Origin: a virus
Virus record (IMG/VR): IMGVR_UViG_3300010938_000951
Span: 62,001 to 126,000 of that record
Strand: one strand, 5' to 3'
DNA length: 64,000 bases
Of the stretch, positions 35,800 through 55,768 are shown piece by piece. How positions within the stretch are numbered: the first letter of the stretch is position 1; every line of letters starts with the position of its first letter. The notes below the pieces were generated by a model, which worked only from the letters and a program-made list of their open reading frames with translations, was not told where the DNA came from and did not search any database. A program made the translations under genes and the position numbers.

Positions 35800-36111
35800 A
35801 TGCCGTGTAGAGATTGGGGCGATGATAGAGATAGAATCTGCCAAAGTGATGTTGATGCTGCGGTTCATAGAGTTCGTCAAGAGCTAGAGCCGCTTCTCTG
35901 TGAAGCTTGTTCGAAGTTGAATGATCTTAATCTTTTTGATGGTTGTTCTCCAGAATTAGTTTCTTGGTATGAGAAACATGAAGAGTGTGAAAAACATCGT
36001 GTTGCTTATGAGGCGGCCCAAAGGTTATCAGCGCGCGAACGACGCTTGTTAGGTATTGATATAGAGCAACTTAAAGCTCTGGCCGATGCTGAAAAAGCTA
36101 AGAAGCGATGA
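35800..36111 (+). CDS. conserved small phage protein (103 aa)
   Basis: Starts MPCRDW and carries a long helix with LLCEACSKL and a basic end. Short proteins with this MPC start are common in phages; function unknown. Overlaps the next gene by 4 nt. Confidence 0.6.
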   Translation: MPCRDWGDDRDRICQSDVDAAVHRVRQELEPLLCEACSKLNDLNLFDGCSPELVSWYEKHEECEKHRVAYEAAQRLSARERRLLGIDIEQLKALADAEKAKKR

Positions 36112-36674
36112 TTTATGCTGTAAGTCCAAAACATATTATTCCGGAAGGTGTTTTGTCCATGGATGTGACCTCTAGGTCAAAATCATGGGGAAGATATCTA
36201 AGCCCGTTTAATTTGGGACCGGTAGACCTCTATGATGGATATGTGGCTAAAAATGTTGAGAACGCCTTTCAGTTTTCAAGAGTTTATCCAGAGCATTCTA
36301 CCGTAGATGGTTTACCGTCCCTTTATTATTGGGAATGGGCGCAAACTGGTTGGAACGAAACAGCGCCAATCAAATATCCGATGGGCGTTTGGAACAAACA
36401 TTTATATCATTGGTGGAATGGTAAGAAACTGACCAATTTGGAAGCTCAAAATCAAATTTTCTTGCCGCTTTATAAACAAGCAGTGGTTAAGACTCCAGCT
36501 TTTGAAAAGCTTAAATATTTTTATGAGAACTCAAAACAAGATATTTATTTGATTGATTTTGAAGGTTACGATCATAGATTTTTAGGTAAGTCTTGGGATG
36601 ATGTAGTAAATAATATTGATATGCCAGTTGGTCAAGCTTTTGCATTGTGTATGATTTTAGAGGGTTATTTATGA
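36108..36674 (+). CDS. DUF6939-like protein
   Basis: 188 residues with VTSRSKSWGRYLSPFNLGP, NVENAFQFSRVYPEH and a DFEGYDHRFLGKSWDD block, the pattern of DUF6939 as I know it. Its layout ('LSPF', then 'ENAFQxSRV') recalls the NADAR fold (FLSNFYP, then EHAYQAAK), and a NADAR gene follows with a 4-nt overlap. I infer a distant NADAR relative acting on ADP-ribosyl compounds. Confidence 0.7.
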   Translation: MIYAVSPKHIIPEGVLSMDVTSRSKSWGRYLSPFNLGPVDLYDGYVAKNVENAFQFSRVYPEHSTVDGLPSLYYWEWAQTGWNETAPIKYPMGVWNKHLYHWWNGKKLTNLEAQNQIFLPLYKQAVVKTPAFEKLKYFYENSKQDIYLIDFEGYDHRFLGKSWDDVVNNIDMPVGQAFALCMILEGYL

Positions 36675-37099
36675 CAAATATTATTGATTCATTTACTGGC
36701 GACTACAAATTTCTTTCTAATTTTTATCCTTGCAAAGTAAAGTTAGACGATGTAGAATATCCGAGCGTTGAACACGCTTATCAAGCGGCCAAAACTTTAG
36801 ACCTTGACGAGAGGAAGCCTTTTCATAAACGGCCATTACTAACTGCCGGAGAATCCAAAAAGATGGGGCGTAAACTAAAAATTCGTCCTGATTGGGAATC
36901 TGTGAAGTTAAAAGTAATGGAAGACCTTTTAGCGCAAAAGTTTGCTGATCCTGTATTGAAAAAACAACTTCAAGAAACTGGTGACGCCAAACTTATTGAA
37001 GGTAATTATTGGGGAGATGATTTTTGGGGAGTTGATAAAAAGAAGGGCGGCAAGAATCATCTTGGCAAACTTCTCATGAAAATTAGAGACAACCAATGA
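36671..37099 (+). CDS. NADAR (YbiA-like) protein, copy 1
   Basis: FLSNFYPC near residue 14, VEHAYQAAK near 35, a GWGDD/FWGVDKKKGGKNHLGKLLM end and 142 residues are typical of NADAR. Known members remove ADP-ribose from guanine in nucleic acid or cleave riboflavin intermediates. It stands between the DUF6939-like gene and an ARH gene, pointing to ADP-ribose removal. A second copy is at 55337. Confidence 0.92.
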   Translation: MTNIIDSFTGDYKFLSNFYPCKVKLDDVEYPSVEHAYQAAKTLDLDERKPFHKRPLLTAGESKKMGRKLKIRPDWESVKLKVMEDLLAQKFADPVLKKQLQETGDAKLIEGNYWGDDFWGVDKKKGGKNHLGKLLMKIRDNQ

Positions 37100-37377
37100 A
37101 TAGAGAAGAAGAAATTGAGTTTGTCAAAAAGATTATTTCCCATCCAGCAGGATTTAATTTAGGTCTCTTTGCAGAACTAACTATTCGATCTCATTCGGAT
37201 GGATTTGAAGTGGCCTGGGATGGGGCCGCTGATGGTACAGACGAGTATAATAAAGATTACTACAAGGATTTTACTGATCTTCATAAAGCGGCTGAGTTCT
37301 TTGTAGATAAGAGAAGAGAGATGCAATTGGGACTTGATATTGAAGCCGAATTAATGAAAGAGAAATCGCATGAGTAA
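37096..37377 (+). CDS. hypothetical acidic protein (93 aa)
   Basis: Overlaps both NADAR and ARH genes by 4-8 nt. Beta strands in the first half (FAELTIRSHSDGFEVAWDG), helix in the second. Not recognised. Confidence 0.55.
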   Translation: MNREEEIEFVKKIISHPAGFNLGLFAELTIRSHSDGFEVAWDGAADGTDEYNKDYYKDFTDLHKAAEFFVDKRREMQLGLDIEAELMKEKSHE

Positions 37378-38287
37378 TGTATTGCTTGGAACTGCGGTTG
37401 GTGATGCTTTGGGCGTTCCATTTGAAACTAAGCTAGCCAATCATGAACCACTAGTTGCTTGGGACGGTAAATCTTATTTGGGTAGCGAGCATCATGGTTT
37501 GAAACCAGGGCAATATTCAGATGACACTCAAATGAGTTTAATGGTAGCCGAATCACTAATTAGTAATCATGGTTTTAATCCTGACGATTTGGCAGAAAGA
37601 TATGTTGACTGGATTGTTTCGGGTCGTGCCAGAGGATATGGAAAAACTACATTACTTGCCGTAACCAATTTGGTTAATGGTAAACATTGGAGCGAATCTG
37701 GTATTGCCGGGTCATATGGTAATGGAACAGCCATGCGAGCTGCGCCTTTTGGTGTCTACTTTAGAAACGATTTACATTCTTTAGTTGCTATTTGCAAAAT
37801 GGATAGTTCTATTACCCATGCTTCCGATGAGGCAGAAGCGGGTTCTATTGCTATTGGTTTGGCGGCAGCTTACGCGGTTAATGGTGATGCCAGCAACCTA
37901 TTAGCTGACTTGTGGCAAATCTTGCCAGCTAGCAAAGTAAGAAGCACGATTTATAGTCTAGATTCTTTAATTGAATCTCCGTATATTACGCCAGAACAGG
38001 CCCTTCGTGTAATTGGTACAAAGGCGGATGTGAGACAAACTGTGCCGGCCGCACTTTATTGTTTTCTTAAATTCAATAATTATCATGATGCAGTGCTTGC
38101 GGCTATCAAAGCCGGTGGCGATACAGATACTACAGCGGCTATTGTTGGCGCCTTGTTTGGCGCTAAATTTGGAATGAAAGTGATTGATCGTGAGCTGGTT
38201 CAAGGAGTGGAAGAATCTGACAGACTAATAGAACTAGATAGTCAGCTATATAATAGATCCAATGGTTCATTTTTAGTAAGGGAATAA
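37370..38287 (+). CDS. ADP-ribosylglycohydrolase, copy 2
   Basis: 305 residues. TAVGDALG at 8-15, YSDDT at 49-53, GNGTAMRA and GGDTDTT at 249-255 match copy 1 at 2468, including both metal sites. The two copies are clearly diverged, so they may have different targets. Forms a unit with DUF6939-like and NADAR genes. Confidence 0.93.
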   Translation: MSNVLLGTAVGDALGVPFETKLANHEPLVAWDGKSYLGSEHHGLKPGQYSDDTQMSLMVAESLISNHGFNPDDLAERYVDWIVSGRARGYGKTTLLAVTNLVNGKHWSESGIAGSYGNGTAMRAAPFGVYFRNDLHSLVAICKMDSSITHASDEAEAGSIAIGLAAAYAVNGDASNLLADLWQILPASKVRSTIYSLDSLIESPYITPEQALRVIGTKADVRQTVPAALYCFLKFNNYHDAVLAAIKAGGDTDTTAAIVGALFGAKFGMKVIDRELVQGVEESDRLIELDSQLYNRSNGSFLVRE

Positions 38288-38288
38288 T

Positions 38289-39170
38289 ATGAGTCGCAAG
38301 GGAACAATTAGGCGTTGTGGTCATATTTGGATAAGCAGTAATTCAGGCTATGATAATGATTGGCACACCAATATTAACGATCGTTTCCATGCTTCCACTT
38401 GGAAATTTGGCAGTATACATCAAGCTAAAGTATTTGTAGATTATAATCACTTAATTGATAATAAAAAACCAGACTCATGGAAAATAGATGGCTCAGTTGG
38501 TATTTGCCTGCATTATGGTAAAACTATGGAAGAAGCAATGCAGACATGCCTGAATTGGATTGATGATTTCAAAAAGACTGGTCCAGCAAGTCCTGAACAA
38601 GTTTTTAAAGACTGTTGGGAACATTGGCCATCTCTTTATCCCAATGGATTACAAATTCCTGTTATTGAACATATCTTTTTTGTTATTGGCGGAGGCTATA
38701 CATGGCTAGATGGAGCAATCGTATCTACTAGTCCGCAAGATTATCTTGAATCGATGCGACGAGATAGAGAAAATTCCACTTTAAAAGAAGCACTAAAAGC
38801 ATCCGAAGAACTTCGAAAAATGATTAGGGCACGTAAGATAGCAGAGGGCGAAGAGCTAGATTATTGGGATTACACTCAAGAAGAGCAAAATTATATGCGC
38901 TGGTCACAAGGCATCTATCGATTTTATCCTGTTTCTGAAGGGTACTCTAATATTTGTTTAGTTCCAGATGATGTTAGACCTGAGTGGTTAAAAATTTCAT
39001 ATGAGGCAGCTATTCTTTTACGAGACAAAAGCGGCATACCAAAAATGCCAAAATCTCGTTATGATTCTTCTAACGAAGATGAAATAAAACGACAAGAAGA
39101 TAATAGAAGAATTGGTGAAAAAGTTGTATTAGATTTGGAACGTAGATTTCCCCAACTAAAGAGAATATAA
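38289..39170 (+). CDS. hypothetical protein (293 aa)
   Basis: Trp- and Tyr-rich alpha/beta protein with a CGHIWI start and a helical, charged C-terminus. Not recognised. Its stop overlaps the helicase start. Confidence 0.6.
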   Translation: MSRKGTIRRCGHIWISSNSGYDNDWHTNINDRFHASTWKFGSIHQAKVFVDYNHLIDNKKPDSWKIDGSVGICLHYGKTMEEAMQTCLNWIDDFKKTGPASPEQVFKDCWEHWPSLYPNGLQIPVIEHIFFVIGGGYTWLDGAIVSTSPQDYLESMRRDRENSTLKEALKASEELRKMIRARKIAEGEELDYWDYTQEEQNYMRWSQGIYRFYPVSEGYSNICLVPDDVRPEWLKISYEAAILLRDKSGIPKMPKSRYDSSNEDEIKRQEDNRRIGEKVVLDLERRFPQLKRI

Positions 39171-40657
39171 TGGCAAAGAAAGTAAGTAAATTTCCACCCA
39201 AAAAGCCTGACAATTCTCATATCCGCATTGCTGCTCCCAAAAGAAATTGGTCTAAGTTTCAAAAAGATATCTTTAGGGATATTAATGGTGGCACTGGACA
39301 TACTGTTGTTATTGCTAGAGCCGGATCTGGTAAAACCTCCACAATAGTTGAAGGTTTTAAATATCTGCCTAAAGGCAAGAAAACCTTAATGGTTGCTTTC
39401 AATAAATCTATTGCAGATGAATTAAAGCAGCGTGCCCCATCTTATGTTGATGTAATGACCCTTCATAGCTTAGGGTTCCGTGCCATTAAACAGAGTTTTG
39501 GTGCTGATGTAGTTCTTGAAAATGATAAAGCTCATATGCTTATCTCTACTCTTATTGGAGATGATAGAGATATGTGGGAAGTTAATCAAAGCATTGCCAA
39601 ATGCGTTTCTCTTTGTAAAGGATTTTTGGTCGATACGCCAACCAAGGTCGGCGATCTAATCGATAAGTTTGGTATTGAGATTTTTGACTATTCTCGCGAA
39701 AAATTCATTGAATTAGTTCTTAAAACGCTTGCATTATGTAAAGCTAAGAAAAATGTTGTCGATTTTGATGATATGATTTGGTTTCCATTCGTTTATCGAT
39801 TGAACGTAGGGAAGTTTGATGTTGTTTTTGTTGACGAGGCACAGGATTTGAATCAAGCACAAATTGCTATGGTTTTGTCTGCCTGCAAAATTGATGGCCG
39901 CATTATTGCAGTAGGTGATCCTGCTCAAAGTATTTATCAATTTCGTGGTGCGGATAGTGAAGCAATTCCAAACTTTATTAATAAGCTTCAAGCTAAAACT
40001 CTACCATTATCCGTTACCTACCGTTGCCCGACCAAGGTTGTAGACCTAGCGAAGGAAATTGTACCTGACATTGAGGCGGCCGAGAACGCCAAGGAAGGGG
40101 TGGTGGAGGAGGTCCCCGCAGAACAAATTCTTAAATTGGTTAGGCCAGGGGATTTCGTACTTTCAAGAACCAATGCCCCTTTGATTAAACACTGTATGGC
40201 TCTACTTCGAGCTGGAATCCCAGCCAATATACAAGGTAGGGATGTAGGATCTAATCTTCAATATTTTATTAAAAAGTCAAAATCAAAAACTATTGTTCAA
40301 TTTACGGAATATGTAAATGCCTGGAGAGAACAAGAGGTAAAACGATTATTAGCTGAAAAGAAAGATCCAATTGCAACTATCGATAAAGCGGAATGTTTAT
40401 TGAACCTCTGTGAGGGTACCCTTACAATTAAGGACCTAAAAGAGACAATAGAAAAGCTATTTAACGATGTTGATGACTCTTCTAAAGTTATATTTTCAAC
40501 AACACATAAAGCCAAAGGTCTGGAAAGAGATCGAGTCTTTGTTCTCACCAACACCTACCGAAAAGGAGCCGGAGGAGAAGAAGACAACCTCTGGTATGTC
40601 GCGGTAACTCGTAGCAAAAATGAGTTGTATCTAGTAAAGAAATACTTGAAGCAATAA
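39170..40657 (+). CDS. UvrD/Rep-type SF1 DNA helicase
   Basis: Walker A AGSGKT at 51-56, motif II VFVDEAQDL at about 219-227, motif III GDPAQSIYQFRGAD, motif IV YRCP, and motif VI VAVTRSKNELYLV are all present. 495 residues, shorter than UvrD (about 720), because the 1B and 2B inserts are reduced. It unwinds DNA 3' to 5' and may act in phage recombination or replication restart. Confidence 0.93.
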   Translation: MAKKVSKFPPKKPDNSHIRIAAPKRNWSKFQKDIFRDINGGTGHTVVIARAGSGKTSTIVEGFKYLPKGKKTLMVAFNKSIADELKQRAPSYVDVMTLHSLGFRAIKQSFGADVVLENDKAHMLISTLIGDDRDMWEVNQSIAKCVSLCKGFLVDTPTKVGDLIDKFGIEIFDYSREKFIELVLKTLALCKAKKNVVDFDDMIWFPFVYRLNVGKFDVVFVDEAQDLNQAQIAMVLSACKIDGRIIAVGDPAQSIYQFRGADSEAIPNFINKLQAKTLPLSVTYRCPTKVVDLAKEIVPDIEAAENAKEGVVEEVPAEQILKLVRPGDFVLSRTNAPLIKHCMALLRAGIPANIQGRDVGSNLQYFIKKSKSKTIVQFTEYVNAWREQEVKRLLAEKKDPIATIDKAECLLNLCEGTLTIKDLKETIEKLFNDVDDSSKVIFSTTHKAKGLERDRVFVLTNTYRKGAGGEEDNLWYVAVTRSKNELYLVKKYLKQ

Positions 40658-40668
40658 TCTCGCATCTA

Positions 40669-41925
40669 GTGGAGATGACTCGCTATAAGATGGTTGCCAG
40701 GGATATTAATTCAAATCCCACACAATTTAGGACTTGGGTAGTTCAGGGACAACCTGATTTTGACGGATACTATTATACTGGCTATAAATCAGGTACTAAT
40801 GCCTTTACTGAAGTCCGTGCCTACGCTATACCCGATACTGGCGTAATAGCCGATTTTAATTTACCAGATCCTACAAATTGGGTGGCAACTACTGATCGTT
40901 TGAATTGGGATTTTCCAATTCGTAAGGTTTTGCCCGCTCCTCTGGAAGATTCTGCTTTAGCAATTCTAGACGGATACATTTATATGTTTGGCGGCAAAAT
41001 CTCTGATAAGATTTACCGTGCCCATGTCAATAATCCTGCTGATTGGGAAGATACAGGCGCCGTATTGCCTGGTCCATTGTTTGGGTCTTCCTTGGCTATT
41101 GTAGATGGATATATCTATTTATTTGGTGGCAACAACGGTGTAGATGCCATTACAGGATTAGGAGCTATAGATAATATCTATTCTGCTCCAGTTAGCAATC
41201 CTTTAGTTTGGACAGACCATGGCTCTTTGCTTCCACGTAGATTAGAATATTCTCACTTAGGAATGGATGGGTACCAACTCTATTTGTTTGGTGGTAGAGA
41301 GATTAATTCAGCTACTGATGTTATTTTTACAGCCTCAACTAGTGATCCATTAACTTGGACTGATACTGGCGCCAAATTACCCTACAAAGTATATGGTGGC
41401 ATTACAGCTCAAATCAATAATAACTGGATGATATTTGGGGGATTGCTTAGTCCGGACTCTCCAACTAATACAATCATATCGGCGCCAGTTAGTTCACCAC
41501 TAGATTGGGATATTAGCGGGCTATTACCATGGTCTACTGGTTTTGGCCAGTTCATTAATATTGGTGGGGATGGTTATATTTTTGGGCCGATGAATGGTGC
41601 GCCTACAAATTTTACATCTATTTTGCGTTGTAATTTAGCAGATCCAAATGCTTGGATAGACCTTCAGGAAATAATACGCGGTGTTATCTCCCATTCACAG
41701 CTCGCGGTAATTGCGGACAGAGTGTGGCTATTTGGTGGCTCTGGTTTGACTGCTGTTTTTGCTTGTAACCAGGTCACTAAGTACAATATTTATCATCCTA
41801 AAGCTGTTAACTATGGCAACATAACTCGTGTTACGGTGCCCAATACTGATAATATAAATAGTCCATATAAAGCTATTGGGATTCCATGGTGGAAAACAGA
41901 TTATCCTTTCCACAATCGACCGTAA
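40669..41925 (+). CDS. second kelch-like beta-propeller protein
   Basis: Repeats with YMFGGK, YLFGGN, YLFGGR and IFGG at intervals of about 45-50 residues and 'WTDTGA' type turns (about residues 95-380). It differs from the minus-strand propeller at 16524. GTG at 40669 or ATG at 40675; neither has a well-spaced RBS. An N-terminal domain of about 80 residues precedes the propeller. A virion or host-surface binding role is plausible but not shown. Confidence 0.78.
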   Translation: MEMTRYKMVARDINSNPTQFRTWVVQGQPDFDGYYYTGYKSGTNAFTEVRAYAIPDTGVIADFNLPDPTNWVATTDRLNWDFPIRKVLPAPLEDSALAILDGYIYMFGGKISDKIYRAHVNNPADWEDTGAVLPGPLFGSSLAIVDGYIYLFGGNNGVDAITGLGAIDNIYSAPVSNPLVWTDHGSLLPRRLEYSHLGMDGYQLYLFGGREINSATDVIFTASTSDPLTWTDTGAKLPYKVYGGITAQINNNWMIFGGLLSPDSPTNTIISAPVSSPLDWDISGLLPWSTGFGQFINIGGDGYIFGPMNGAPTNFTSILRCNLADPNAWIDLQEIIRGVISHSQLAVIADRVWLFGGSGLTAVFACNQVTKYNIYHPKAVNYGNITRVTVPNTDNINSPYKAIGIPWWKTDYPFHNRP

Positions 41926-41937
41926 TTTTGCAAATAA

Positions 41938-41957: not shown

Positions 41958-41979
41958 CAAAATGATTAGGATTTAAATT

Positions 41980-42471
41980 ATGAAAGACTATGACTCGCCA
42001 GAGGAGCGTGAAAAACGAGCTTCTCAGGAAGACCCTATTGTTATGTACTTGATTGTTCATGAGACATTAAATATGAGTACGGGCAAAACGGCCGCACAAT
42101 GTGCGCACGCCTCTCAAATGCTCACGCTAGAGTATTTTGAGAAGAAAGATAAATCTCGCGAATTACAAAAACAAATTCAGAAAACCACTGATCCCGATGA
42201 GCTTCGTGTTATGAAGGGGATATATGCAGAACATAGCCGTAAATTATCCATTTTTGGTGAATGGTTGCAGGGCTCTTTTCGTAAAGTAGTGCTTCGAGCT
42301 GATGATAAAGAATGGAATAAGATCAAAGAGGATTATGGCGATCATATGATTATGGTAGTTGATGCTGGCTTGACAGAAATTCCAAGTGGTAGCGAGACAG
42401 TTATAGGTCTATGGCCTATGCGTAAAAGTCAGGCACCAAAAACTGTAAAGCGCCTTCAAGTATTGAAATGA
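41980..42471 (+). CDS. peptidyl-tRNA hydrolase type 2 (Pth2)
   Basis: MYLIVHETLNMSTGKTAAQCAHAS (read as MYLIVHETLN and STGKTAAQCAHAS), the later KVVLRADDKEW, and the end AGLTEIPSGSETVIGLWP match Pth2, the archaeal/eukaryal form. It frees tRNA from stalled peptidyl-tRNA. Most bacteria use the unrelated Pth1, so this is not a copy of the usual host gene. A central helical insert (about 50-90) is longer than in the family. Leads the translation block with SET, Thg1 and PheRS. Confidence 0.92.
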   Translation: MKDYDSPEEREKRASQEDPIVMYLIVHETLNMSTGKTAAQCAHASQMLTLEYFEKKDKSRELQKQIQKTTDPDELRVMKGIYAEHSRKLSIFGEWLQGSFRKVVLRADDKEWNKIKEDYGDHMIMVVDAGLTEIPSGSETVIGLWPMRKSQAPKTVKRLQVLK

Positions 42472-42842
42472 TACACGGATTAGAGGTACGAGAAACACAA
42501 GAGCGCGGCAAGGGCGTTTTTGCCATGAAGCGTTTTGAAAAAGGCGAACTCATTGAGTGTTGCCATGTTATTGTTGTGCCTCGTACTGAGATCATGATTG
42601 GAAACCTTACCTCAGTTCTTAGACATTATGTTATTGATTGGGATGGTAGATTGGCTATCCCAACTGGTTATGGGTGTTTTTATAATCATTCATACAGTCC
42701 AAATGCCATTCATCAAAAGCATTTGGATTTAAATGAGATGCACTTTCATGCATTAACAGAGATTTTGCCTTTTGATGAGATTACGATTAATTATGGTGGG
42801 TTTCCTACTTACAATGAACAATTATGGTTTGAGGTAAAATGA
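42468..42842 (+). CDS. SET-domain protein
   Basis: RGKGVFAMKRFEKGELIE near 13-30, the catalytic NHSYSPNA at 73-80 and EITINYG at 104-110 make up the SET core. SET enzymes methylate lysines with S-adenosylmethionine. 124 residues is a minimal SET domain without pre- or post-SET. Target unknown; overlap with pth2 and Thg1 genes suggests a ribosomal or translation-factor target (inference). Confidence 0.88.
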   Translation: MIHGLEVRETQERGKGVFAMKRFEKGELIECCHVIVVPRTEIMIGNLTSVLRHYVIDWDGRLAIPTGYGCFYNHSYSPNAIHQKHLDLNEMHFHALTEILPFDEITINYGGFPTYNEQLWFEVK

Positions 42843-43648
42843 GTAATGATAGTCTCGGCGACAGAATGAAGTCTTATGAAAATGTTTTCAGGCTTCAAAT
42901 GCCAATTAGAATGCCAGTTATTATTCGTGTGGATGGTAAAGCATTCCACTCCTATACCAAGGGAAGAAAATATGATGGCACGGAGAAGGGTGCCCCTCTA
43001 GGAAATCCGGTTGATGCTGGTTTAGTAGAATGCATGAATGATACGGCTATTGCTCTTTGTGAAGAAATACAAGGAGCCCAAGTAGCTTATGTTCAGTCTG
43101 ATGAGATTTCAATTCTATTGAATAACTACAAAACTACTGATACTCAATCTTGGTTTGACAATAATCTTCAAAAAATGGTCAGCATTTCTTCTGCTATTGC
43201 TTCTGTAAGGTTTACCCTGAACTCATGGAAGATTTGGGGAGTTATAGAGACAGAAGAAATTCCTCAACCCATAATTGAGCCGGCCTTTTTTGATGCTCGC
43301 GCTTTTATCATACCTAAAGAAGATGTGGTCAACTATTTCTTATGGCGTCAACAGGATGCAACTAGAAACTCTGTACAAATGTTGGCTCGTTCACTGTATT
43401 CTCACAAAGAATGTACGGACAAAAACAACTCAGAACTTCAGGAATTGATTTTTCAAAAGGGAATTAATTGGAATGATTGCCCAACTTCACAGAAGCGTGG
43501 GCGATGTATTGTTAAAAAGTATACTGAAAAGTCTTCTTTGAATCCAAAGACTCAACAGTATGAAACAGCCCTTCGTAGTGAGTGGATAGTTGATAATGAA
43601 ATTCCTATCTTCTCACAAGATAGAGATTATATCAACAAATATGTCTAA
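42839..43648 (+). CDS. Thg1-like 3'-5' nucleotide transferase
   Basis: SLGDRMKSYE near 5-14, the metal motif RVDGKAFHSYTKG from 30, SDEIS at 87-91 with the second acidic pair, FDARAF and YFLWRQQDATRNS are all conserved. 269 residues. Eukaryal Thg1 adds G-1 to tRNA-His; bacterial and phage relatives repair 5'-truncated tRNAs using the 3' strand as template. In a phage with 20 tRNAs and an RNA ligase a tRNA-repair role is likely. Confidence 0.94.
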   Translation: MSNDSLGDRMKSYENVFRLQMPIRMPVIIRVDGKAFHSYTKGRKYDGTEKGAPLGNPVDAGLVECMNDTAIALCEEIQGAQVAYVQSDEISILLNNYKTTDTQSWFDNNLQKMVSISSAIASVRFTLNSWKIWGVIETEEIPQPIIEPAFFDARAFIIPKEDVVNYFLWRQQDATRNSVQMLARSLYSHKECTDKNNSELQELIFQKGINWNDCPTSQKRGRCIVKKYTEKSSLNPKTQQYETALRSEWIVDNEIPIFSQDRDYINKYV

Positions 43649-44021
43649 GAATCAAATACGAAGAGAGCGTAAGCAAAGACGCCATAAACAGAAAAGAATC
43701 AATAACAAGCTAAAGAAAAATTTGTTTGGTCACTTGTTTATGGCGCCTTGTTATTATTGCAAGCGTGTATTTTTAGTATCTGAACTAACAATTGAACATA
43801 TCGTTCCACTATGTTTGGGCGGGACTAACGATCCTATAAATATTGCACTAGCCTGCTTCCCTTGTAATAATACACGCGGAAGAGATGCTTGGTTTCAAAG
43901 ACGAGAACACAATAAAAAATACTATGAACAATATTACTCGAAGCATCGAAATGAAAATAGGGAAAGGATTATACAAGAAATCAGCGCATCCTTTGTGCAT
44001 TGTCAAAGAGATGGTGTTTGA
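43641..44021 (+). CDS. HNH endonuclease with basic N-terminus
   Basis: Residues 1-30 are highly basic (KQRRHKQKRINNKLKK region), a likely DNA-binding or internal-start segment. CYYC, TIEHIVP, NIALAC and CFPCNNTRGRD form the HNH site. Its 3' third (from 43885) overlaps the PheRS gene in another frame. 126 residues. Confidence 0.8.
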   Translation: MSKNQIRRERKQRRHKQKRINNKLKKNLFGHLFMAPCYYCKRVFLVSELTIEHIVPLCLGGTNDPINIALACFPCNNTRGRDAWFQRREHNKKYYEQYYSKHRNENRERIIQEISASFVHCQRDGV

Positions 44022-44991
44022 TTACTTTAGCGATTTATCAAAAATTGAAATCGATAATCCGTATGTTCCTATTGAGTATAATTTTGATAGGCTACGTGTG
44101 CCCGAAGATCATCCTTCCAGGCGCCCGACCGATACTTATTATAAAGATGATAAGAACTGTTTGCGCACACATATGACTTGTTATTTGTATCCATTTGGTA
44201 AGTCTGAAACTGGTCAAAGTAAACTTAAGTACATCACATGTGGTGATGTATATAGAAAAGATACTATTGATTCTACTCATTATCCGGTGTTCCATCAGAT
44301 GGATGCTTTCTGTATGGTGCCAGATGATGTAGATGTAAAACAAGACCTACGTGATCGACTTCAAGGATTGGTAAAGCGCCTATTCGGTGATAACGTAGAA
44401 TATCAATTCTTAGAAGATTCTGAATATGAAGAGGTTTACTTTCCGTTTACTATTGATTCGGTAGAGGTAAGTGTATCTCTGCCAGATGAAAATGGCAAAG
44501 TTAAACAACTAGAAATTTTAGGAGCGGGCACCGTACACCCAGATATCATGTCAGACCTTGGTTTACCAGGCAAAAAAGCTTGGGCTTTTGGTTTGGGGCT
44601 GGAAAGACTAGCCATGGTTATGTTTGGTATTCCAGATATTAGATTATTCTGGAGCACAGACAAAAGATTTTTAAGTCAGTTCACGCCAGGCAAAGTAACT
44701 AAATTTAATCCATTCTCAAAGTATGAATCTTGTTACAAAGATATTTCATTCTATTTGAGTTCAAAATTCTCGTATAATGATTTTTGCTCCATCGCCAGAG
44801 ATGAAGATGAGAGTAATTTAATAGAATCTATCACATTAATTGATGAATTTCAAAACAAAGGTCGTACCTCGCAGTGTTATAGAATTACATATCGTTCCAT
44901 GGATGGAACTTTACGAAATTCAGATGTGAATAAAATTCAAAAATCCATTAGAGATCGAATTATTCAAGAGTTAGAGGTTGAGGTGCGATGA
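43885..44991 (+). CDS. single-chain (mitochondrial-type) phenylalanyl-tRNA synthetase
   Basis: Charges tRNA-Phe. Motif 2 GDVYRKDTIDSTHYPVFHQ at 120-138 and motif 3 AFGLGLERLAM belong to the PheRS catalytic core. DISFYLSSKF, YRITYRSMDGTL and a final helix form the fused FDX-ACB anticodon-binding domain. This one-chain layout is typical of mitochondrial FARS2, not of bacterial alpha2-beta2 PheRS. The upstream segment NITRSIEMKIGKGLY (17-30) also matches the mitochondrial enzyme, so the true start lies at 43885 or 43924, inside the HNH gene, an overlap of up to 137 nt. Confidence 0.93.
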   Translation: MLGFKDENTIKNTMNNITRSIEMKIGKGLYKKSAHPLCIVKEMVFDYFSDLSKIEIDNPYVPIEYNFDRLRVPEDHPSRRPTDTYYKDDKNCLRTHMTCYLYPFGKSETGQSKLKYITCGDVYRKDTIDSTHYPVFHQMDAFCMVPDDVDVKQDLRDRLQGLVKRLFGDNVEYQFLEDSEYEEVYFPFTIDSVEVSVSLPDENGKVKQLEILGAGTVHPDIMSDLGLPGKKAWAFGLGLERLAMVMFGIPDIRLFWSTDKRFLSQFTPGKVTKFNPFSKYESCYKDISFYLSSKFSYNDFCSIARDEDESNLIESITLIDEFQNKGRTSQCYRITYRSMDGTLRNSDVNKIQKSIRDRIIQELEVEVR

Positions 44992-46787: not shown

Positions 46788-48973
<2,186 letters not shown>

Positions 48974-49840
48974 ATGCAGTTAAAAGTGCTTAACTCTCAA
49001 ATTGATCGCTCTGTTAATTTTGTTGAAGAACAATTAGTGGGGTTTCTTGAATCGCGTTTCGTTAGAAAGTGCGACGAATATTTTATTGCTTATTTATCAT
49101 CGCAAACAGGCTGTAATCGTGGTTGTACCTTCTGTCATTTAACTGCAACTGGGCAGACTTCTTTTATTGATTCGTCTCATAATGATTTTATGGCACAAGC
49201 AATTCAGGTTTTTAAGCATTACCGAATGCAAAAGAATCCTGCAAAATACATGCATTATAACTTTATGGCTCGTGGAGAGCCATTTGCCAATAAGATTTTA
49301 TTGGATTCTGGCGATGAATTGTTGTCAAAGCTCGGTCAAGTGGCAAAAGATGAAGGCTTACCAGCCAAATTCAATATCTCTACAATCATGCCCTCAACGT
49401 TGAAAAAACCGTTGCCCGAAGTATTCACTTACATAAATCCAACTATCTATTATTCGATCTATTCTACTGATGAAATATGGCGTAAAAATTGGATGCCAGC
49501 CGCGATGCCGGTCAATGAAGCCCTTTCTATGTTGAAAGAGTATCAAGATTTTTCAAAGAAGATAGTAAAAATTCATTATGCCTTCATTGCTGGAGAGAAT
49601 GATTCAGAAAAAGAAGTTAATAATGTTTGTGATGCTTTAGAAAGACATAATCTTCTTTGTGAATTTAATTTAGTTAGATATAATCCTGCATCACCAGATC
49701 AGGGTACTGAAAGTTCTGAAGAAGCAATTGCGCGCAACATCGGCATTATCACGAATAGGTTTAAGTTCAATACGAAAGTTCAGATGATTCCTCGTGTCGG
49801 GTTTGATGTGAAAGCATCCTGCGGCATGTTTGTTGAGTGA
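48974..49840 (+). CDS. RlmN/Cfr-like radical SAM methyltransferase
   Basis: The Fe-S motif CNRGCTFC at 47-54 follows SSQTG as in RlmN. ARGEPFANK resembles the GMGEP SAM strand, and the end RVGFDVKASCGMF keeps the second catalytic Cys (C283) used to carry the methyl group. 288 residues, shorter than RlmN (about 380) because the N-terminal RNA-binding domain is missing. RlmN methylates A2503 of 23S rRNA and A37 of tRNAs; here the target may be a phage tRNA or rRNA. Confidence 0.85.
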   Translation: MQLKVLNSQIDRSVNFVEEQLVGFLESRFVRKCDEYFIAYLSSQTGCNRGCTFCHLTATGQTSFIDSSHNDFMAQAIQVFKHYRMQKNPAKYMHYNFMARGEPFANKILLDSGDELLSKLGQVAKDEGLPAKFNISTIMPSTLKKPLPEVFTYINPTIYYSIYSTDEIWRKNWMPAAMPVNEALSMLKEYQDFSKKIVKIHYAFIAGENDSEKEVNNVCDALERHNLLCEFNLVRYNPASPDQGTESSEEAIARNIGIITNRFKFNTKVQMIPRVGFDVKASCGMFVE

Positions 49841-49846
49841 GGTTTT

Positions 49847-50038: not shown

Positions 50039-50039
50039 A

Positions 50040-50501: not shown

Positions 50502-50503
50502 TC

Positions 50504-50740
50504 ATGTTAAAGATAGTTACCAACCATAATAAACAAGATGTGACGTACTCTTTTACAATCGGACAAGAGTTTCCAGAAGTTCAAGGCAAGTTGTTGCGAG
50601 TAGAGTTGAATGGACAAGAACTGCAAAAGCTTATTAAGGAAAAAGAAATACCTATCTGCGCTATTGATAATTCCTATCTCATCTGGCATGGCAAACAAGC
50701 TGGCGGTATCCTAAAGTTATTACGCGAGATATTATGTTAG
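50504..50740 (+). CDS. hypothetical protein (78 aa)
   Basis: ATG at 50504 (a TTG lies two codons earlier). Beta-rich N-terminus, helical end (GGILKLLREIL). Overlaps the next gene by 7 nt. Not recognised. Confidence 0.5.
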   Translation: MLKIVTNHNKQDVTYSFTIGQEFPEVQGKLLRVELNGQELQKLIKEKEIPICAIDNSYLIWHGKQAGGILKLLREILC

Positions 50741-51042: not shown

Positions 51043-51065
51043 TAGCACTTTTAGTGTATAAGTAG

Positions 51066-51272
51066 GTGAAATATTGCCTGCTTTTGTTGTTTTTACTGAC
51101 TGGCTGCGTCAAATTCGATGCTCCTGTCCCCTGGAAGCAACCAGATAAATCTTCAATAACTTGTACGGGTGATACTTGTTGTTATCCGTCTACTCCAAAC
51201 ACTATGCAGTGTATTTATACCCAGCCATTAAGCGGAACTGTAATGGTGTATATTAAAATTGTTGAAAAGTAA
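51066..51272 (+). CDS. small lipoprotein (68 aa)
   Basis: GTG start. Basic residue, hydrophobic stretch and LLTGC lipobox, so Cys14 would be lipidated. The mature part is Pro/Thr-rich with four more cysteines. Outer-membrane spanin subunits look like this, but no matching inner spanin lies beside it. Confidence 0.65.
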   Translation: MKYCLLLLFLLTGCVKFDAPVPWKQPDKSSITCTGDTCCYPSTPNTMQCIYTQPLSGTVMVYIKIVEK

Positions 51273-51385
51273 TTTGTCGAGAAAAAGTTCATTTCTCATC
51301 ATTCTTAATTGAGTTTGAAAGAACTCTCCGATAATTTATCAAATTGACTCAATATAGTCATCCGAAACTACGATAAGAGGAAAAT

Positions 51386-52888
51386 ATGGCAGCCCTGAAA
51401 GCATATTCTGCTGGTGAAGAACCGAATTTCCCAGCCAATTATGACGTGACTAAGCGTACTACGCTAAATTTCACGGATGTGATTAACAATAATAACAAAT
51501 ACTACAACCTAGAAGTACAGGTTGCAAAGAATGGTGAAGCTCGTATTTTTACCCAGTATGGACGAGTTGGTGGTACCGCAGCCAAAGAGTACAGAATTTG
51601 TAATTCGCAATCTCATGCTGAAACCGAAGCAGACAAAATCATCAAATCAAAAACCAAGAAAGGCTATGTTGAAGTCAAATTGGTTCAGGCCGCTGTAGGC
51701 TCTGATGTTGGTAAGTCTAAGGTTGATAATAGCACTGTATCTGTTGATGCTTTGAAGAAAGCCGGAGTACAGGTCAAAGAAGAAGGCGAACAGTCTAAAT
51801 TGCACCCAGAAGTACAAGATTTAGTTCGTACCTGGTTCGGCGTTACACAGGAGTTCATTGAGCTAAATTTGGACACCAAAAAGTGTCCTCTTGGGCAACT
51901 TTCTCTTGATCAGCTTACCAAAGGCAAAGATATTCTTGAAGAGGCCCGCAAGATTGTTCATATGAAAAAGCCTGATATTCAGGAATTGAACAAGTTAACT
52001 AATCTTTATTATTCTAATATCCCACACAATTTTGGGTATCGTAGGTTAGACGCTGATGGTCTTCGTTTAGATGCTGACGATAAAATTGATAAAGCCTTTG
52101 ACATTCTTGATGTTTTCGGAGACGCCAAGAATGTTCAAGCGGTTATCTCTAAAAAGAGTGCCGTTGATTCTCAGTATGCTACATTGAACGCCCAATTAGA
52201 GTATGTAGACCCAACTGATCCAACTTGGAAATGGTTGGAGGCAATGGTTCATGAAACTCGCGCTAGCAATCATTCTGGTTTGGGCAAACTAAAAGTTCAC
52301 AAAATTTTTAAGCTTGCTAGAAACAACGAAGAAAAATACTTTTTAGAAACTGCACAAGAGATTGCTAAGAAGTGTGGTAAGTGGAATCCTTCTCCAATTT
52401 ATTCTAACTTGGTTAAGAGGCGCCCAGACGTTCCAAAGGAACTTCAAGAACTATACCAAAAGGCAAATATTCTTCCTGGTTGGCACGGCACTCGTCGAGC
52501 TAATATGATTGGTATTACTACCAAGGGCCTTTTGATCCGTCCATCTGGTGTTATCCATGCGGGCTCTATGTATGGTGACGGTATTTACTGGGCCGTTCAT
52601 AGTACAAAATCTATGAACTATTGTGATGTCAAGGGCTCGTATTGGGCACAAGGAAGCAACAAAACAGCATATCTCTTCTTGGGGGATGTAGCTTTTGGCA
52701 ATCAAGAGATGGCTGGCGGTTCTCGTATGTATACCAAGAAAAATATTGAGCCCAACCATTCTGTATGGGCTAAATCTGGCGGGTCTTCTGGATTGTACAA
52801 TGATGAGTTGATCACTTATAGTGCGTCTGGTCCCGGACAACAACATTCTCTTCGATACATTATCGAATTCGAAACTCAGGCACGATAA
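51386..52888 (+). CDS. poly(ADP-ribose) polymerase with WGR domain
   Basis: Uses NAD+ to attach ADP-ribose. Residues about 20-110 form a WGR domain (QYGRVGG at 57-63, Tyr in place of Trp), which in PARP1-3 senses DNA breaks. Residues about 140-270 resemble the helical regulatory domain. The catalytic domain holds the H-Y-E set: H367 in GWHGTRR, a Tyr in SMNYC near 411, and E474 in YNDELITY. 500 residues, complete. The retained Glu favours chain elongation. The 113-nt gap upstream has a weak TTGAGT...ATAAT pair. Rare in phages and potentially active on DNA ends. Confidence 0.94.
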   Translation: MAALKAYSAGEEPNFPANYDVTKRTTLNFTDVINNNNKYYNLEVQVAKNGEARIFTQYGRVGGTAAKEYRICNSQSHAETEADKIIKSKTKKGYVEVKLVQAAVGSDVGKSKVDNSTVSVDALKKAGVQVKEEGEQSKLHPEVQDLVRTWFGVTQEFIELNLDTKKCPLGQLSLDQLTKGKDILEEARKIVHMKKPDIQELNKLTNLYYSNIPHNFGYRRLDADGLRLDADDKIDKAFDILDVFGDAKNVQAVISKKSAVDSQYATLNAQLEYVDPTDPTWKWLEAMVHETRASNHSGLGKLKVHKIFKLARNNEEKYFLETAQEIAKKCGKWNPSPIYSNLVKRRPDVPKELQELYQKANILPGWHGTRRANMIGITTKGLLIRPSGVIHAGSMYGDGIYWAVHSTKSMNYCDVKGSYWAQGSNKTAYLFLGDVAFGNQEMAGGSRMYTKKNIEPNHSVWAKSGGSSGLYNDELITYSASGPGQQHSLRYIIEFETQAR

Positions 52889-52971
52889 TGCATTGTGAAC
52901 ATGAATGGCGTTATTTAGGCGGTCACAATGAGTTGTGGTTCTGCCTTAAATGTGGTGCATACAAACGATGA
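52888..52971 (+). CDS. 27-residue zinc-knuckle peptide
   Basis: The ATG overlaps the PARP stop (TAATG) and the TGA overlaps the next ATG. Encodes CEH near the start and CLKC near the end, enough for one zinc site. Coupled between two real genes; tiny but likely translated. Confidence 0.5.
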   Translation: MHCEHEWRYLGGHNELWFCLKCGAYKR

Positions 52972-53438
52972 ATATTTTTGTCCTTGATTATGATGTGAAA
53001 TTGGCAGCTCAAGCCCATGTTGACAAACATTGTGTCAAGATGATTTTGGAAACAACTCAACTATTAAACAATGCGTTAATTGTGGGCTCACCGGGTTACG
53101 ATCCAGTCTATCGACAAACTCATAAGAACCATCCATGTAGCATTTGGGTGGCTGAATCTGTTGCTAATTTTGAGTGGCTTTCCAATTTGGGTTTGGCGCT
53201 ATGTGAAGAATATACATATCGTTATTCTAAAACTCATAAATGTCAGCCGATTTTGCAACAATTTTCTTCCCTTATCCACACTTTAAATTTACCTCAAATT
53301 GGTTTGACCCCATATAAATTATGTATGCCAGATCAGTACAAGGTTAGCGATCCGGTGGAATCTTACCGTAACTATTATCGTGGTGATAAAGCTTACATTG
53401 CAAAGTGGTCTAAACGAGAACAACCTAAGTGGTGGTAA
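52968..53438 (+). CDS. conserved phage protein (156 aa), function unknown
   Basis: NIFVLDYDVKLAAQAHVDKH, then THKNHPCSIWVAES and LCMPDQYK, matching a family common in large phages (often with 'VVKM.LE..QLL' after the first motif). Conserved D, H and C residues look catalytic, but I know no proven activity. Confidence 0.72.
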   Translation: MNIFVLDYDVKLAAQAHVDKHCVKMILETTQLLNNALIVGSPGYDPVYRQTHKNHPCSIWVAESVANFEWLSNLGLALCEEYTYRYSKTHKCQPILQQFSSLIHTLNLPQIGLTPYKLCMPDQYKVSDPVESYRNYYRGDKAYIAKWSKREQPKWW

Positions 53439-53439
53439 T

Positions 53440-53595
53440 ATGTATTATGTAGAATATGAAGTTAGGGGATTTGATGGGCTAGTACAAAAAGCAGGACCTT
53501 ATTCTGCGGCTGAAGTTCAATATCAGCGAGATGATATTGCTGGTTATGAAGGCGTTTATAATGTAAAAGTCGTTCCAGCAGAAGAGGTCGAATGA
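53440..53595 (+). CDS. hypothetical protein (51 aa)
   Basis: TAATATG junction with the upstream gene. Compact strand-helix-strand protein (YYVEYEVRGF, then YNVKVVPAEE). Overlaps the radical SAM start by 4 nt. Not recognised. Confidence 0.55.
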   Translation: MYYVEYEVRGFDGLVQKAGPYSAAEVQYQRDDIAGYEGVYNVKVVPAEEVE

Positions 53596-54860
53596 AAATT
53601 GGATTGTTAACTTTTCCGCGACTGACCAACACCTTCTCCGTTGGTCAGCCAACACTGTTGGCCCAAAAACTTGAGCCATCTGTGTTGTACCTCTCCCCAT
53701 CTCAAGGGGAGCTGGTTTTTCTGGAGGATAATATTCCTCGCCCTGATATCGATCTATATTTGTGTTCAGTCTACACTCGTGGTTATAATGAGTTTGTCAG
53801 ATTTGCACAGGCAGTAGGTCGAGATAAAGTTGTGGCAGGAGGATATCATCCTACCGCTGAGCCAGAAGATATACTACGATACGCGCATAAAGTGGTAGTT
53901 GGTTATTGTGATAATATTGATCAAATTTTGGATGAGAAGCCTGGTATTCATAAAGGATCATTCGGGTTTACTCATATGCGAAGGGATTTGATTGATATGT
54001 CAACCTTGAAGCAAGTATATCCAGACATTCATCCTCATGATATTTCTGGCTCTATGGTTTCTTCAGTTGGTTGTCCCTATGATTGTGATTTCTGCTCTAC
54101 GCCTTCTATGTCGGGGCGCAAAATGCGCACTGCCACTTTGGGCTATGTAGAACGCGAAATTGATGATTTAGTTAAGCGTGGAGCCACTACTGTTTTCATT
54201 CGCGATGAGAGTTTTGCTACCCATCCAATGGTAAGAGAAATTGCACCATTCTTTAAAGATAAGTTCAAAGTTCTTTACTCGTTTGGAACCAGTGGCGTGT
54301 ATGCTAAACACCCAGAGATTCTCAAAGTGCTTAAAGAGAATGGTTGGCACTCTCTCAATATTGGTTTAGAAGATGTTGGGGTGAAATATAAAAAGAATAT
54401 CAATCTCAAGCTTGGCGTGGAGAATATCCATAAGAATGGCCTGCGTCATGTTATGTCATTCATTGTTAATGATGACGGTAAGACAGAAGAGGAAGCGCGA
54501 GCCAACTACAGAGCATTGTATGATGCTTTTATAGATTTGAAACCATTACAAGTGTGCGCTAACTTTTTGATGCCGTTCCCTGGAACCAAACTTTGGGAAA
54601 ATTATAAACATCGCGTGACTTCTGCTGATTTTGATCGATTCGATTCAAAAACTCCAGTTTTTACAGGTGGTGCCCTCGGGGAATGGCATAAGCGAATGTT
54701 AGTTTCAGTTCAACTAAAATATTATACTAGTGAAATCTATAATAAACAAGTCAGAGAGTTTGAATGTGGTGATTTGCTTCATCTTAGAATGAATGAGCTT
54801 GCTAAAGAGTTTCACCTAGATGATGTTCCGTGGGGCCATTTATTGGAGCTAAAAGTATGA
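53592..54860 (+). CDS. radical SAM protein with N-terminal B12-binding-like domain
   Basis: CPYDCDFC at about 160-167 binds the [4Fe-4S] cluster. Residues 1-140 form a Rossmann-like domain of the cobalamin-binding type (VVAGGYHPT, though no clear DxHxxG). Later 'SLNIGLEDVG' and MPFPGTKLWENY are typical of B12-radical SAM enzymes. 422 residues. May methylate or rearrange an unknown substrate. The nearby ferredoxin at 7625 could supply electrons. Confidence 0.88.
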   Translation: MKIGLLTFPRLTNTFSVGQPTLLAQKLEPSVLYLSPSQGELVFLEDNIPRPDIDLYLCSVYTRGYNEFVRFAQAVGRDKVVAGGYHPTAEPEDILRYAHKVVVGYCDNIDQILDEKPGIHKGSFGFTHMRRDLIDMSTLKQVYPDIHPHDISGSMVSSVGCPYDCDFCSTPSMSGRKMRTATLGYVEREIDDLVKRGATTVFIRDESFATHPMVREIAPFFKDKFKVLYSFGTSGVYAKHPEILKVLKENGWHSLNIGLEDVGVKYKKNINLKLGVENIHKNGLRHVMSFIVNDDGKTEEEARANYRALYDAFIDLKPLQVCANFLMPFPGTKLWENYKHRVTSADFDRFDSKTPVFTGGALGEWHKRMLVSVQLKYYTSEIYNKQVREFECGDLLHLRMNELAKEFHLDDVPWGHLLELKV

Positions 54861-55336
54861 TTGAGATTGTAACGGGCGACCTATTTGACGCTACTGAAAA
54901 ATATTTAGTACATCAGTGTAATTGTGTAACTAATACGGCTGCACATTTGGCGGCTGATATGTTCAAAAGGTTTCCTCATTCTGATATCTATACTTCACGT
55001 ACTGAGCCAGATAAGCCAGGACATATTATCATTCGTGGAAATGGTAAAGATGAAAGATATGTGGTTGCACTTTTGGGTCAATATTATCCGGGCCGACCTA
55101 AGTATCCAAAATCTACTTTAGATGGCCTAGCGCCTCGCGAGAAATACTTTTACCACGGACTGCTCCGCCTGGCTAAGGTCGAAGACTTGGAAAGTGTAGC
55201 ATTCCCCTGGCGCATCGGGTGCGGTGCTGCTGGTGGAGACTGGGAACATTATCTTGGTACATTGAATAATTTTGCTCAATACGTAGAACAAAAGGGCGTT
55301 AAGGTTCGCATTTATCGTAGAGAGGGAGATGAATAA
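54857..55336 (+). CDS. macrodomain protein
   Basis: IEIVTGDLFDA at the N-terminus, LVHQCNCVTNTAAHLA with the ADP-ribose Asn loop, and the phosphate loop FPWRIGCGAAGGDW match macrodomains of the ALC1/TARG1/Poa1 type. 159 residues. It binds or cleaves ADP-ribose. It abuts a NADAR gene on one side and is 2 kb from the PARP, fitting an ADP-ribose cycle. Confidence 0.93.
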   Translation: MIEIVTGDLFDATEKYLVHQCNCVTNTAAHLAADMFKRFPHSDIYTSRTEPDKPGHIIIRGNGKDERYVVALLGQYYPGRPKYPKSTLDGLAPREKYFYHGLLRLAKVEDLESVAFPWRIGCGAAGGDWEHYLGTLNNFAQYVEQKGVKVRIYRREGDE

Positions 55337-55768
55337 ATGGCTATCAAGTTTTATAAAACTAATGAGCCTTATGGTTTTTTGAATAATTTTAAAAAAGCCA
55401 GAATGTTTATTTATGGGCGGTGGTGGAATAATGTAGAAGCCGCTTATCAATCTCAAAAAACCAACGATCCTGAAGAGCAAGATATGATTTGGGCGGCGAA
55501 AACTCCACGAGAAGCTAGAAATCTTGGACAAAAAGTTAAAATGAGGGATTGTTGGGACAGAGTTAAAGACCAAGTCATGTATGAGTGTTGTATGGCTAAA
55601 TTTTTGCAACATCCTGATTTGCGCAAACAATTAGTGGAAACAGGAAATGAAGAACTAATTGAAGATTCTCCAGTAGATTCTTATTGGGGTTGTGGTTCGG
55701 ATGGGGCCGGCAAAAATATGCTAGGTAAAACACTAATGAGGATTCGAGAGGAGTTGAAAGGTGAGTAA
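55337..55768 (+). CDS. NADAR (YbiA-like) protein, copy 2
   Basis: YGFLNNF near residue 12, VEAAYQSQK near 34, YWGCGSDGAGKNMLGKTLM near the end. 143 residues. Diverged from copy 1 at 36671. The ATG directly follows the macrodomain stop, so the two are made together. Confidence 0.92.
   Translation: MAIKFYKTNEPYGFLNNFKKARMFIYGRWWNNVEAAYQSQKTNDPEEQDMIWAAKTPREARNLGQKVKMRDCWDRVKDQVMYECCMAKFLQHPDLRKQLVETGNEELIEDSPVDSYWGCGSDGAGKNMLGKTLMRIREELKGE

Follow-up and report, generated by a model that had tools for sequence, protein, structure and literature searches.

Why should a bacterial virus carry, in one genome, enzymes that rebuild NAD+, an enzyme that attaches ADP-ribose and several more that could bind or remove it? 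We addressed this question in a 64,000-nt stretch of a virus record (IMG/VR IMGVR_UViG_3300010938_000951, positions 62,001 to 126,000), hereafter the window; the other 200 kb of the record, beyond the window, was searched for named families only. A sequence-only reading had proposed that the genes between positions 36108 and 55768 form one system, either reversing host toxins or marking the phage's own DNA ends. Pfam and Foldseek confirm the annotated identities, and the one WGR-PARP, two NADARs, two ADP-ribosylglycohydrolases (ARHs) and macrodomain gene that it had named are indeed present in the window by Pfam, PHROG, PADLOC and Foldseek. This very large bacterial virus carries NAD+-rebuilding enzymes, one probable ADP-ribose writer and several probable eraser or binder families in two conserved blocks. 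Both run on the plus strand and are separated by 14 kb: block A comprises NadM-Nudix, NadV, NadE, DUF6939, NADAR1 and ARH1, and block B comprises LigA, PARP, the macrodomain and NADAR2. The PARP, both NADARs, ARH1, macrodomain, DUF6939 and LigA lie within 36108-55768 as claimed, whereas the second ARH lies 33 kb upstream of that range and the NAD+ genes, with the Nudix domain, lie just upstream of it (31631-35526).

Block A begins with a NadM-type bifunctional NMN adenylyltransferase/Nudix protein of the ADP-ribose pyrophosphatase type (31631..32638, +), which scores 411 bits against NCBIfam NF003791 (cut-off 409) and matches PDB 2qjo with an E-value of 7e-100; its H..H motif is kept (FHNAHH, with HNAH in place of HxGH) and its Nudix box is intact. 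There follow a NadV/NAMPT nicotinamide phosphoribosyltransferase (33209..34609, +; PF04095 2.3e-56, PF18127 1.7e-32), which aligns over its full length with NAMPTs of known structure, and the NAD synthase NadE (34606..35526, +; TIGR00552 141.9 bits, cut-off 63.65), which has an intact SGGxDS motif (SGGIDS) and was seen in one further relative, L043. The NARP2 type of NAD+ reconstitution is defined as NadV (Nampt) plus NadM (NMN adenylyltransferase). Both are encoded here with motifs intact and, unlike in NARP2-type systems, NadE is added alongside, followed directly by genes for ADP-ribose removal.

ARH1 (37370..38287, +; PF03747 1.3e-70; PDB matches 1t5j, ARH3 and DraG) and the second ARH, ARH2 (2468..3397, +; PF03747 1.9e-71), are both ADP-ribosylglycohydrolases of the DraG/ARH type, combining the PF03747 domain with the DDT and DTDT (D-x-DT) metal motifs. 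NADAR1 (36647..37099, +; PF08719 7.9e-25), in block A, and NADAR2 (55337..55768, +; PF08719 4.4e-38), in block B, both exceed the PF08719 cut-off and match YbiA (2b3w; 1e-16 and 4.6e-25, respectively). They carry E42-x6-K49 and E34-x6-K41, each with an LIE motif whose Glu aligns to the last-strand position of YbiA, so that the catalytic E/K/E set is kept in both, as in the YbiA subfamily. YbiA-type and phage T4 NADARs did not rescue cells from DarT1 toxicity, though they hydrolysed guanine-linked ADP-ribose (G-ADPr) in vitro (PMC11125620). The name AdfN, considered for a phage NADAR anti-DarT factor, has no support in the papers searched and was not adopted; the anti-DarT factors they name are AdfA and AdfB (PMC11481870).

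The remaining member of block A, a DUF6939 protein (36108..36674, +), is a diverged paralogue, 'a', of a clear family with relatives across many phages; its match to Pfam PF22075 (E 1.3e-4, 22.1 bits) falls below the 27-bit cut-off. Its AF2 model is confident (pLDDT 96.6), and in a Foldseek search of 350,542 PDB chains the top three, 8bat, 2b3w and 8bau, are all NADARs. The best of these matches (E 1.2e-3, probability 1.00) has a TM-score of 0.48, only moderate, which points to divergence from NADAR. Across 58 aligned sequences E51 and D150 are invariant and K58 occurs in at least 90%, the window copy having R58; the catalytic residues of the E. coli C7 NADAR, E88, K95 and D171, form an E-x6-K motif plus an acidic or His residue on the last strand (PMC11543638). 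Pfam gives no PF08719 match, a search of PDB sequences with the DUF6939 profile found nothing, and a link through a narrow NADAR profile was dropped at P 0.12. A broader NADAR profile compared by hhalign gives P 0.0019 (probability 14%), with none of 100 shuffled decoys scoring as well; because this broader profile is alone in linking the sequences, the assignment leans on the fold. The gene adjoins an ARH or NADAR gene in three unrelated phages (L065, L069 and L079). Bacterial DUF6939 loci were set aside as a test for ART operons, there being only seven, with no NADAR, ARH, macrodomain or PARP gene detected in the examined flanks; some verrucomicrobial DUF6939 frames carry a radical SAM domain. 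On its modelled structure, DUF6939 is probably a diverged NADAR-fold family, newly proposed here.

Block B begins with LigA, an NAD+-dependent DNA ligase (46788..48671, +; TIGR00575 459.7 bits, cut-off 444.45) with an intact KxDG motif; a UvrD helicase and a pyrimidine-dimer glycosylase are encoded in the same region. The putative writer (51386..52888, +) consists of WGR, helical regulatory and PARP catalytic domains (Pfam E-values of 6.7e-17 for WGR, 1.8e-20 for PARP_reg and 4.9e-19 for PARP), and aligns with the WGR-HD-ART chains of PARP1 and PARP2 with a best E-value of 2.3e-28. Its H-Y-E triad is intact in the window copy and in relatives, and its WGR domain carries the YGR variant that is typical of bacterial PARPs (PMC5966428). 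The phage enzyme shares this domain order and triad with eukaryotic PARP1/2 and bacterial WGR-PARPs, and the variant with the bacterial enzymes; it differs in having no zinc fingers, in its phage genome and in its LigA and macrodomain neighbours. The architecture is that of DNA-dependent PARPs of the PARP1/2 type and predicts DNA-dependent activity.

The Pfam match of the macrodomain protein (54830..55336, +) is below cut-off (0.0095), but the protein matches phrog_335 (1e-16) and the PADLOC DarG model (2.8e-5). Its AF2 model (pLDDT 94) retrieves solved macrodomains at a Foldseek probability of 1.00, DarG and TARG1 included, with TM-scores of 0.73 for 5m3i and 0.67-0.68 for TARG1. Another macrodomain is encoded at 158566-159084 of the record, beyond the window. 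The sequence-only reading had called all visible active-site residues intact, which is true of the PARP, both NADARs, both ARHs, NadM, Nudix, NadE and LigA, and too strong for the whole set: the DarG catalytic Lys cannot be assigned in the phage macrodomain, the column that phmmer aligns to the DarG active-site loop being variable among its relatives, and the window DUF6939 carries K58R.

Are these genes kept together? In relatives, writer, eraser families and NAD+ supply do stay together, and gene order follows the same two blocks, NadM-NadV-DUF6939-ARH1 and LigA-PARP-macrodomain-NADAR2. The macrodomain lies 66-2862 bp downstream of PARP in 21/21 loci with room for it, LigA lies upstream of PARP in 22 of 24 loci, and NadV-DUF6939-ARH1 occurs in every family locus long enough to show it. 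This grouping exceeds chance, but gene order across the region as a whole is just as well kept, two uncharacterised genes at 50734 (24/24) and 56470 being conserved as strongly as the macrodomain; because the region is generally syntenic, linkage of the blocks alone is no proof of function. Another phage, L240, has ARH, LigA and PARP inside 7 kb, and in Cellulophaga phi17:2 PARP is one gene away from an ATP-type DNA ligase. The co-occurrence of PARP and ARH (15/17 versus 3/26) is confounded by kinship and contig completeness. Among contigs of at least 330 kb the association is not significant (P = 0.06), and two of the counted contigs, G006 and G019, come from one sample and look like pieces of one phage; for these reasons, co-occurrence was rejected as proof of a pair.

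Rather than one closed cycle, we tentatively favour, at a little less than an even chance, a two-block NAD+/ADP-ribose toolkit conserved across a family of jumbo phages, which would combine counter-defence with a DNA-break-triggered PARP that has its own macrodomain. The gene identities, motifs, folds and conserved order that it builds on are direct observations. Block A would rebuild NAD+ from nicotinamide through NadM-Nudix, NadV and NadE, and would strip or clear the ADP-ribose with which host defences tag nucleic acids, proteins or signal molecules. The NADARs would be expected to act on guanine, the ARHs on proteins or phosphate ends, and DUF6939 to remove or bind ADP-ribose by way of a diverged NADAR fold. 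The members of block B would be tied to DNA: nicks or ends would switch on the WGR-HD-ART enzyme, which would ADP-ribosylate itself or whatever is bound at the break, and the DarG/TARG1-like macrodomain would remove or read the mark. Against this reading count the general synteny, the PARP-ARH association that loses significance in large contigs, the failure of YbiA-type and T4 NADARs to rescue cells from DarT1, the match of both NADARs to a riboflavin-intermediate model and the unassignable catalytic Lys of the macrodomain. We infer both the break activation and the role of NAD+ supply in counter-defence from the gene families; the substrates of the PARP and the erasers are not readable from sequence, and each chemistry is that expected of its family. 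Phage NadV/NadM and ADP-ribose-removing domains have been read as counter-defence before (PMC9503650), and the counter-toxin option is a reasonable one, with phage precedent already proposed (PMC9503650, PMC11125620).

The PARP could instead be a host-takeover effector that modifies host proteins, like T4 Alt, ModA and ModB, with the NAD+/ADP-ribose genes a separately accumulated counter-defence that has no writer-eraser relation to it. Such T4 ART-like action has been proposed for phage PARPs (PMC7824862), most PARP-bearing named phages tested, XacN1 and Klebsiella and Cellulophaga phages among them, are without ARH, and general synteny accounts for the linkage. We nevertheless consider this account unlikely, given the DNA-dependent activity predicted from the WGR-HD architecture and the macrodomain beside PARP in every informative locus, with moderate proximity in Klebsiella phages too (about 2.4 kb in FBKp34).

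Housekeeping is less probable again. Here the NADARs would clear riboflavin intermediates and the macrodomain would be an ADP-ribose-1''-phosphatase in tRNA/RNA repair, in keeping with both NADARs exceeding the cut-off of TIGR02464 (a riboflavin-intermediate N-glycosidase model), with the phosphatase name of phrog_335, and with 20 tRNA genes and Thg1. Yet the NADARs assayed from bacteria and phages, among them YbiA, hydrolyse and reverse G-ADPr (PMC11125620), the macrodomain fold is closest to DarG, TARG1 and alphavirus ADP-ribose-binding macrodomains, and the PARP and ARHs are left unexplained.

Least probable is a single self-marking cycle, the second option of the sequence-only reading, in which PARP would ADP-ribosylate the phage's own DNA at ends or nicks and removal would be open to the phage's erasers alone: the writer shares one genome with at least three eraser families and its region with LigA, UvrD and the glycosylase, yet writer and erasers sit in two blocks 14 kb apart, named phages have PARP without ARH (in phi17:2 without NADAR as well), and YbiA-type NADARs act on guanine-ADPr, tested NADARs being inactive on phosphate-end ADP-ribose (PMC11833690).

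Phage NAD+/ADP-ribose toolkits have been described before, and the present genome is a rich variant. Iyer, Burroughs, Aravind and colleagues reported NadM/NadV salvage, NADAR, macrodomain, ARG (ARH), Nudix and PARP genes in large phages, with NADAR next to NadM/NadV (PMC9503650; jumbo phages, PMC7824862). The families and the counter-defence reading are the same; here, by contrast, all occur in one genome, with two ARHs, two NADARs, PARP and NadE, and DUF6939 is added as a putative NADAR-fold member in a conserved DUF6939-ARH pair. As in DarTG1 (ART and NADAR) and DarTG2 (ART and macrodomain), an ART is accompanied here by NADARs and a macrodomain, the macrodomain being DarG-like in fold. The phage writer, however, is a WGR-HD-PARP (PF00644) rather than DarT, for which PADLOC gives no match; the 168-aa phage protein is a macrodomain only, without the C-terminal DarT-binding domain of DarG; and the NADARs belong to the YbiA type rather than to that of BC4488, which is linked to DarT1.

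What is known of DNA-break-dependent ADP-ribosylation comes mainly from DNA repair in eukaryotes. With LigA, PARP and the macrodomain in conserved order, these phages make a simple setting in which to ask whether a virus uses it. It is a long shot that the phage runs reversible, break-triggered ADP-ribosylation of its DNA or DNA-bound proteins beside an NAD+-dependent ligase, with PARP as writer and the macrodomain and NADAR2 as erasers, and that phages and giant viruses have in DUF6939 a new family of ADP-ribosylhydrolases. Should DUF6939 prove to be a hydrolase or binder with the NADAR fold, a family of many phages and, by fold, giant viruses would gain a testable function, and phage counter-defence a further arm.

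The IMG/VR virus record totals 266,899 bases, of which the window is bases 62001-126000, and its ADP-ribose genes lie mainly in two blocks. In block A, a NadM-type NMN adenylyltransferase whose C-terminal half is a Nudix domain (31631-32638) is followed by NadV/NAMPT (33209-34609), NadE (34606-35526), a DUF6939 protein, NADAR1 (36647-37099) and ARH1 (37370-38287). Block B comprises LigA (46788-48671), a WGR-PARP_reg-PARP protein (51386-52888), a macrodomain protein (54830-55336) and NADAR2 (55337-55768). Pfam bears out the PARP, ARH1, both NADARs and LigA of the sequence-only reading, which had set two ARH genes within 36108-55768; both are real, and ARH2 lies beyond that range, at 2468-3397. 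A second macrodomain is encoded outside the window, at record positions 158566-159084. NadE beside NadV and NadM is common only to L043 among the relatives scanned. The window also carries twenty tRNA genes in several clusters (1713-63334), a rich translation set with PTH2 (41980-42471), Thg1 (42839-43648) and a PheS-type tRNA synthetase (43885-44991), and a Kelch-repeat beta-propeller protein (40669-41925).

By motif scan, WHG, GDGIY and NDELITY supply the H, Y and E of the PARP, and these motifs recur in the relatives' full-length copies readable by the scan; the WGR motif reads YGR, the usual form in bacterial PARPs (PMC5966428). NADAR1 and NADAR2 both carry E-x6-K and LIE, which by sequence makes them YbiA-type enzymes: their last-strand residue is Glu, whereas NADARs linked to DarT1 have Asp there and gp30.3 phage NADARs have His (PMC11125620; PMC11543638). 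Both ARH proteins keep DDT and DTDT in the same scan, and NadM has HNAH where HxGH is expected. That all active sites are intact, as first proposed, holds for most of these proteins and is unproven for two: the macrodomain, whose catalytic residue is not assignable, and the window's DUF6939 protein, which has R in place of K58.

The DUF6939 family probably has a diverged form of the NADAR fold. It occurs in 64 records of the phage collection (31-44% identity among the matches listed), at 80 loci in IMG/VR and in a few copies from bacteria or MAGs; a literature search found no paper naming it. Across a 58-sequence alignment there is no variation at S32, P33, E51, Q55, Y60, W77, P91, Y122, D150 or G175, and next to none at K58. 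Its LSPF...NxENAWQFSK parallels LSNF...VEHAYQAAK of NADAR, in which the E and K, seven positions apart, correspond to the catalytic E88 and K95 of E. coli C7 NADAR (PMC11543638); D150 comes after the last strand, where NADARs have Glu, Asp or His. A confident AF2 model (pLDDT 96.6, pTM 0.91) finds G. lovleyi NADAR as its best PDB match (E 1.2e-3, probability 1.00, TM 0.48), with E. coli YbiA and P. nicotianae NADAR completing the top three; among viral models, uncharacterised giant-virus proteins rank first and annotated NADARs next. Profile-profile comparison with NADAR is weak (P 0.0019), with 0/100 column-shuffled decoys as good. The family has two paralogue clades; the window copy falls in the diverged clade (R58; KYPMGVWNKH versus RYPMGKGxxP; GQAF versus GHAF) and so may bind rather than cleave. 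Elsewhere, a TAG stop interrupts DUF6939 in two near-identical contigs (L081/L082:5078-5695), and verrucomicrobial frames of ~1200 aa (L124:4048-7647, L125:3-3641) join a weak radical SAM match to a DUF6939 domain.

The order NadM-NadV-(NadE)-DUF6939-ARH1 is found in every locus of sufficient length in the jumbo-phage family of the window's relatives. At loci beyond the family, an ARH gene (L065) or a NADAR gene (L069, L079) overlaps or adjoins DUF6939, and two more loci (L054, L062) have ARH at a distance of 2-4 kb; about 60 further loci have no such neighbour. Three relatives (L042, L045, L046) have a second, canonical DUF6939 copy after the first one, and NADAR1 occupies its slot in the window, a single case that is suggestive of a swap.

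The block B macrodomain is too diverged to pass the Pfam cut-off and was recognized by matches to PADLOC's model for DarG and to phrog_335. The structure predicted for it (pLDDT 94) aligns with solved macrodomains at probability 1.00; the highest TM-score among the matches listed is 0.73, to the DarG macrodomain of M. tuberculosis, and TARG1 scores 0.67-0.68. The column corresponding to the DarG loop PTKKHWR in phmmer alignment varies among relatives. PARP is followed by the macrodomain, at a distance of 66-2862 bp to its start, in every one of the 21 loci that offer 3 kb or more of room. NADAR2 follows within 4 kb in 16/21, with one copy more distant and one a fragment, and LigA lies upstream of PARP in 22/24; of the remaining two, one is a truncated contig. 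Two uncharacterised control genes, 50734 (24/24) and 56470 (20/21 of the macrodomain-count loci), are kept equally; the entire region is therefore syntenic, and linkage alone is no proof of function. Farther afield, a more distant phage (L240) has ARH-LigA-PARP inside 7 kb, and Cellulophaga phi17:2 has an ATP-type ligase one gene from PARP. A pyrimidine-dimer glycosylase-like gene (PF03013, phrog_624; 52950-53438 in the window) has PARP on one side and the macrodomain on the other in several relatives. Radical SAM genes flank PARP on both sides (48974-49840 and 53592-54860), and one is directly 3' of PARP in Klebsiella phage 05F01. Two relatives have a second PARP gene or fragment (G003 16667-17161; G015 83014-83400), and an R2K ATP-grasp peptide ligase-like gene (56994-57797) lies near the macrodomain/NADAR2 pair.

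Among 43 large viral contigs, ARH occurs in 15/17 with PARP versus 3/26 without (Fisher 6e-7, a value inflated by kinship and fragmentation). In the 16 contigs of at least 330 kb the counts are 10/11 versus 2/5 (P 0.06), and NADAR is unrelated to PARP (P 1.0). Among named records tested, two uncultured huge phages with PARP also have ARH; ARH is absent from PARP-bearing Klebsiella (05F01, FBKp34, KP13-16), XacN1, RAS14 and Cellulophaga phages, and NADAR likewise from phi17:2 and phi4:1. The PARP writer does not need these erasers.

Phage PARPs, NADARs, ARHs, macrodomains and large-phage NAD+ salvage have been described (PMC7824862; PMC9503650). New here are their density in one genome, the link between DUF6939 and NADAR, and the conserved two-block order.

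The analysis establishes which genes are present, their motifs, folds and order, and from these we infer the activation, substrates and benefit of both blocks. For block A, counter-defence is the best supported reading. NadV and NadM form the NARP2-type route restoring NAD+, and those of block A would do the same. Both are known from phages, and NADAR, ARH and Nudix enzymes take ADP-ribose from macromolecules or signals, as those of block A would (PMC9503650). Guanine-ADPr in DNA and RNA is the substrate of tested NADARs, and phosphate-end ADPr that of ARH and macrodomain enzymes (PMC11833690; PMC11125620). Neither YbiA nor T4 NADAR rescued cells from DarT1 toxicity (PMC11125620), so DarT1 is not a safe guess as the target of the window NADARs.

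In block B, the WGR-HD-ART enzyme would be expected to respond to DNA breaks. Its gene lies near a ligase, a UvrD helicase and the pyrimidine-dimer glycosylase-like gene, and the DarG/TARG1-like macrodomain is kept beside it. We infer that block B may be a DNA-break-triggered writer with this macrodomain as its own eraser or reader.
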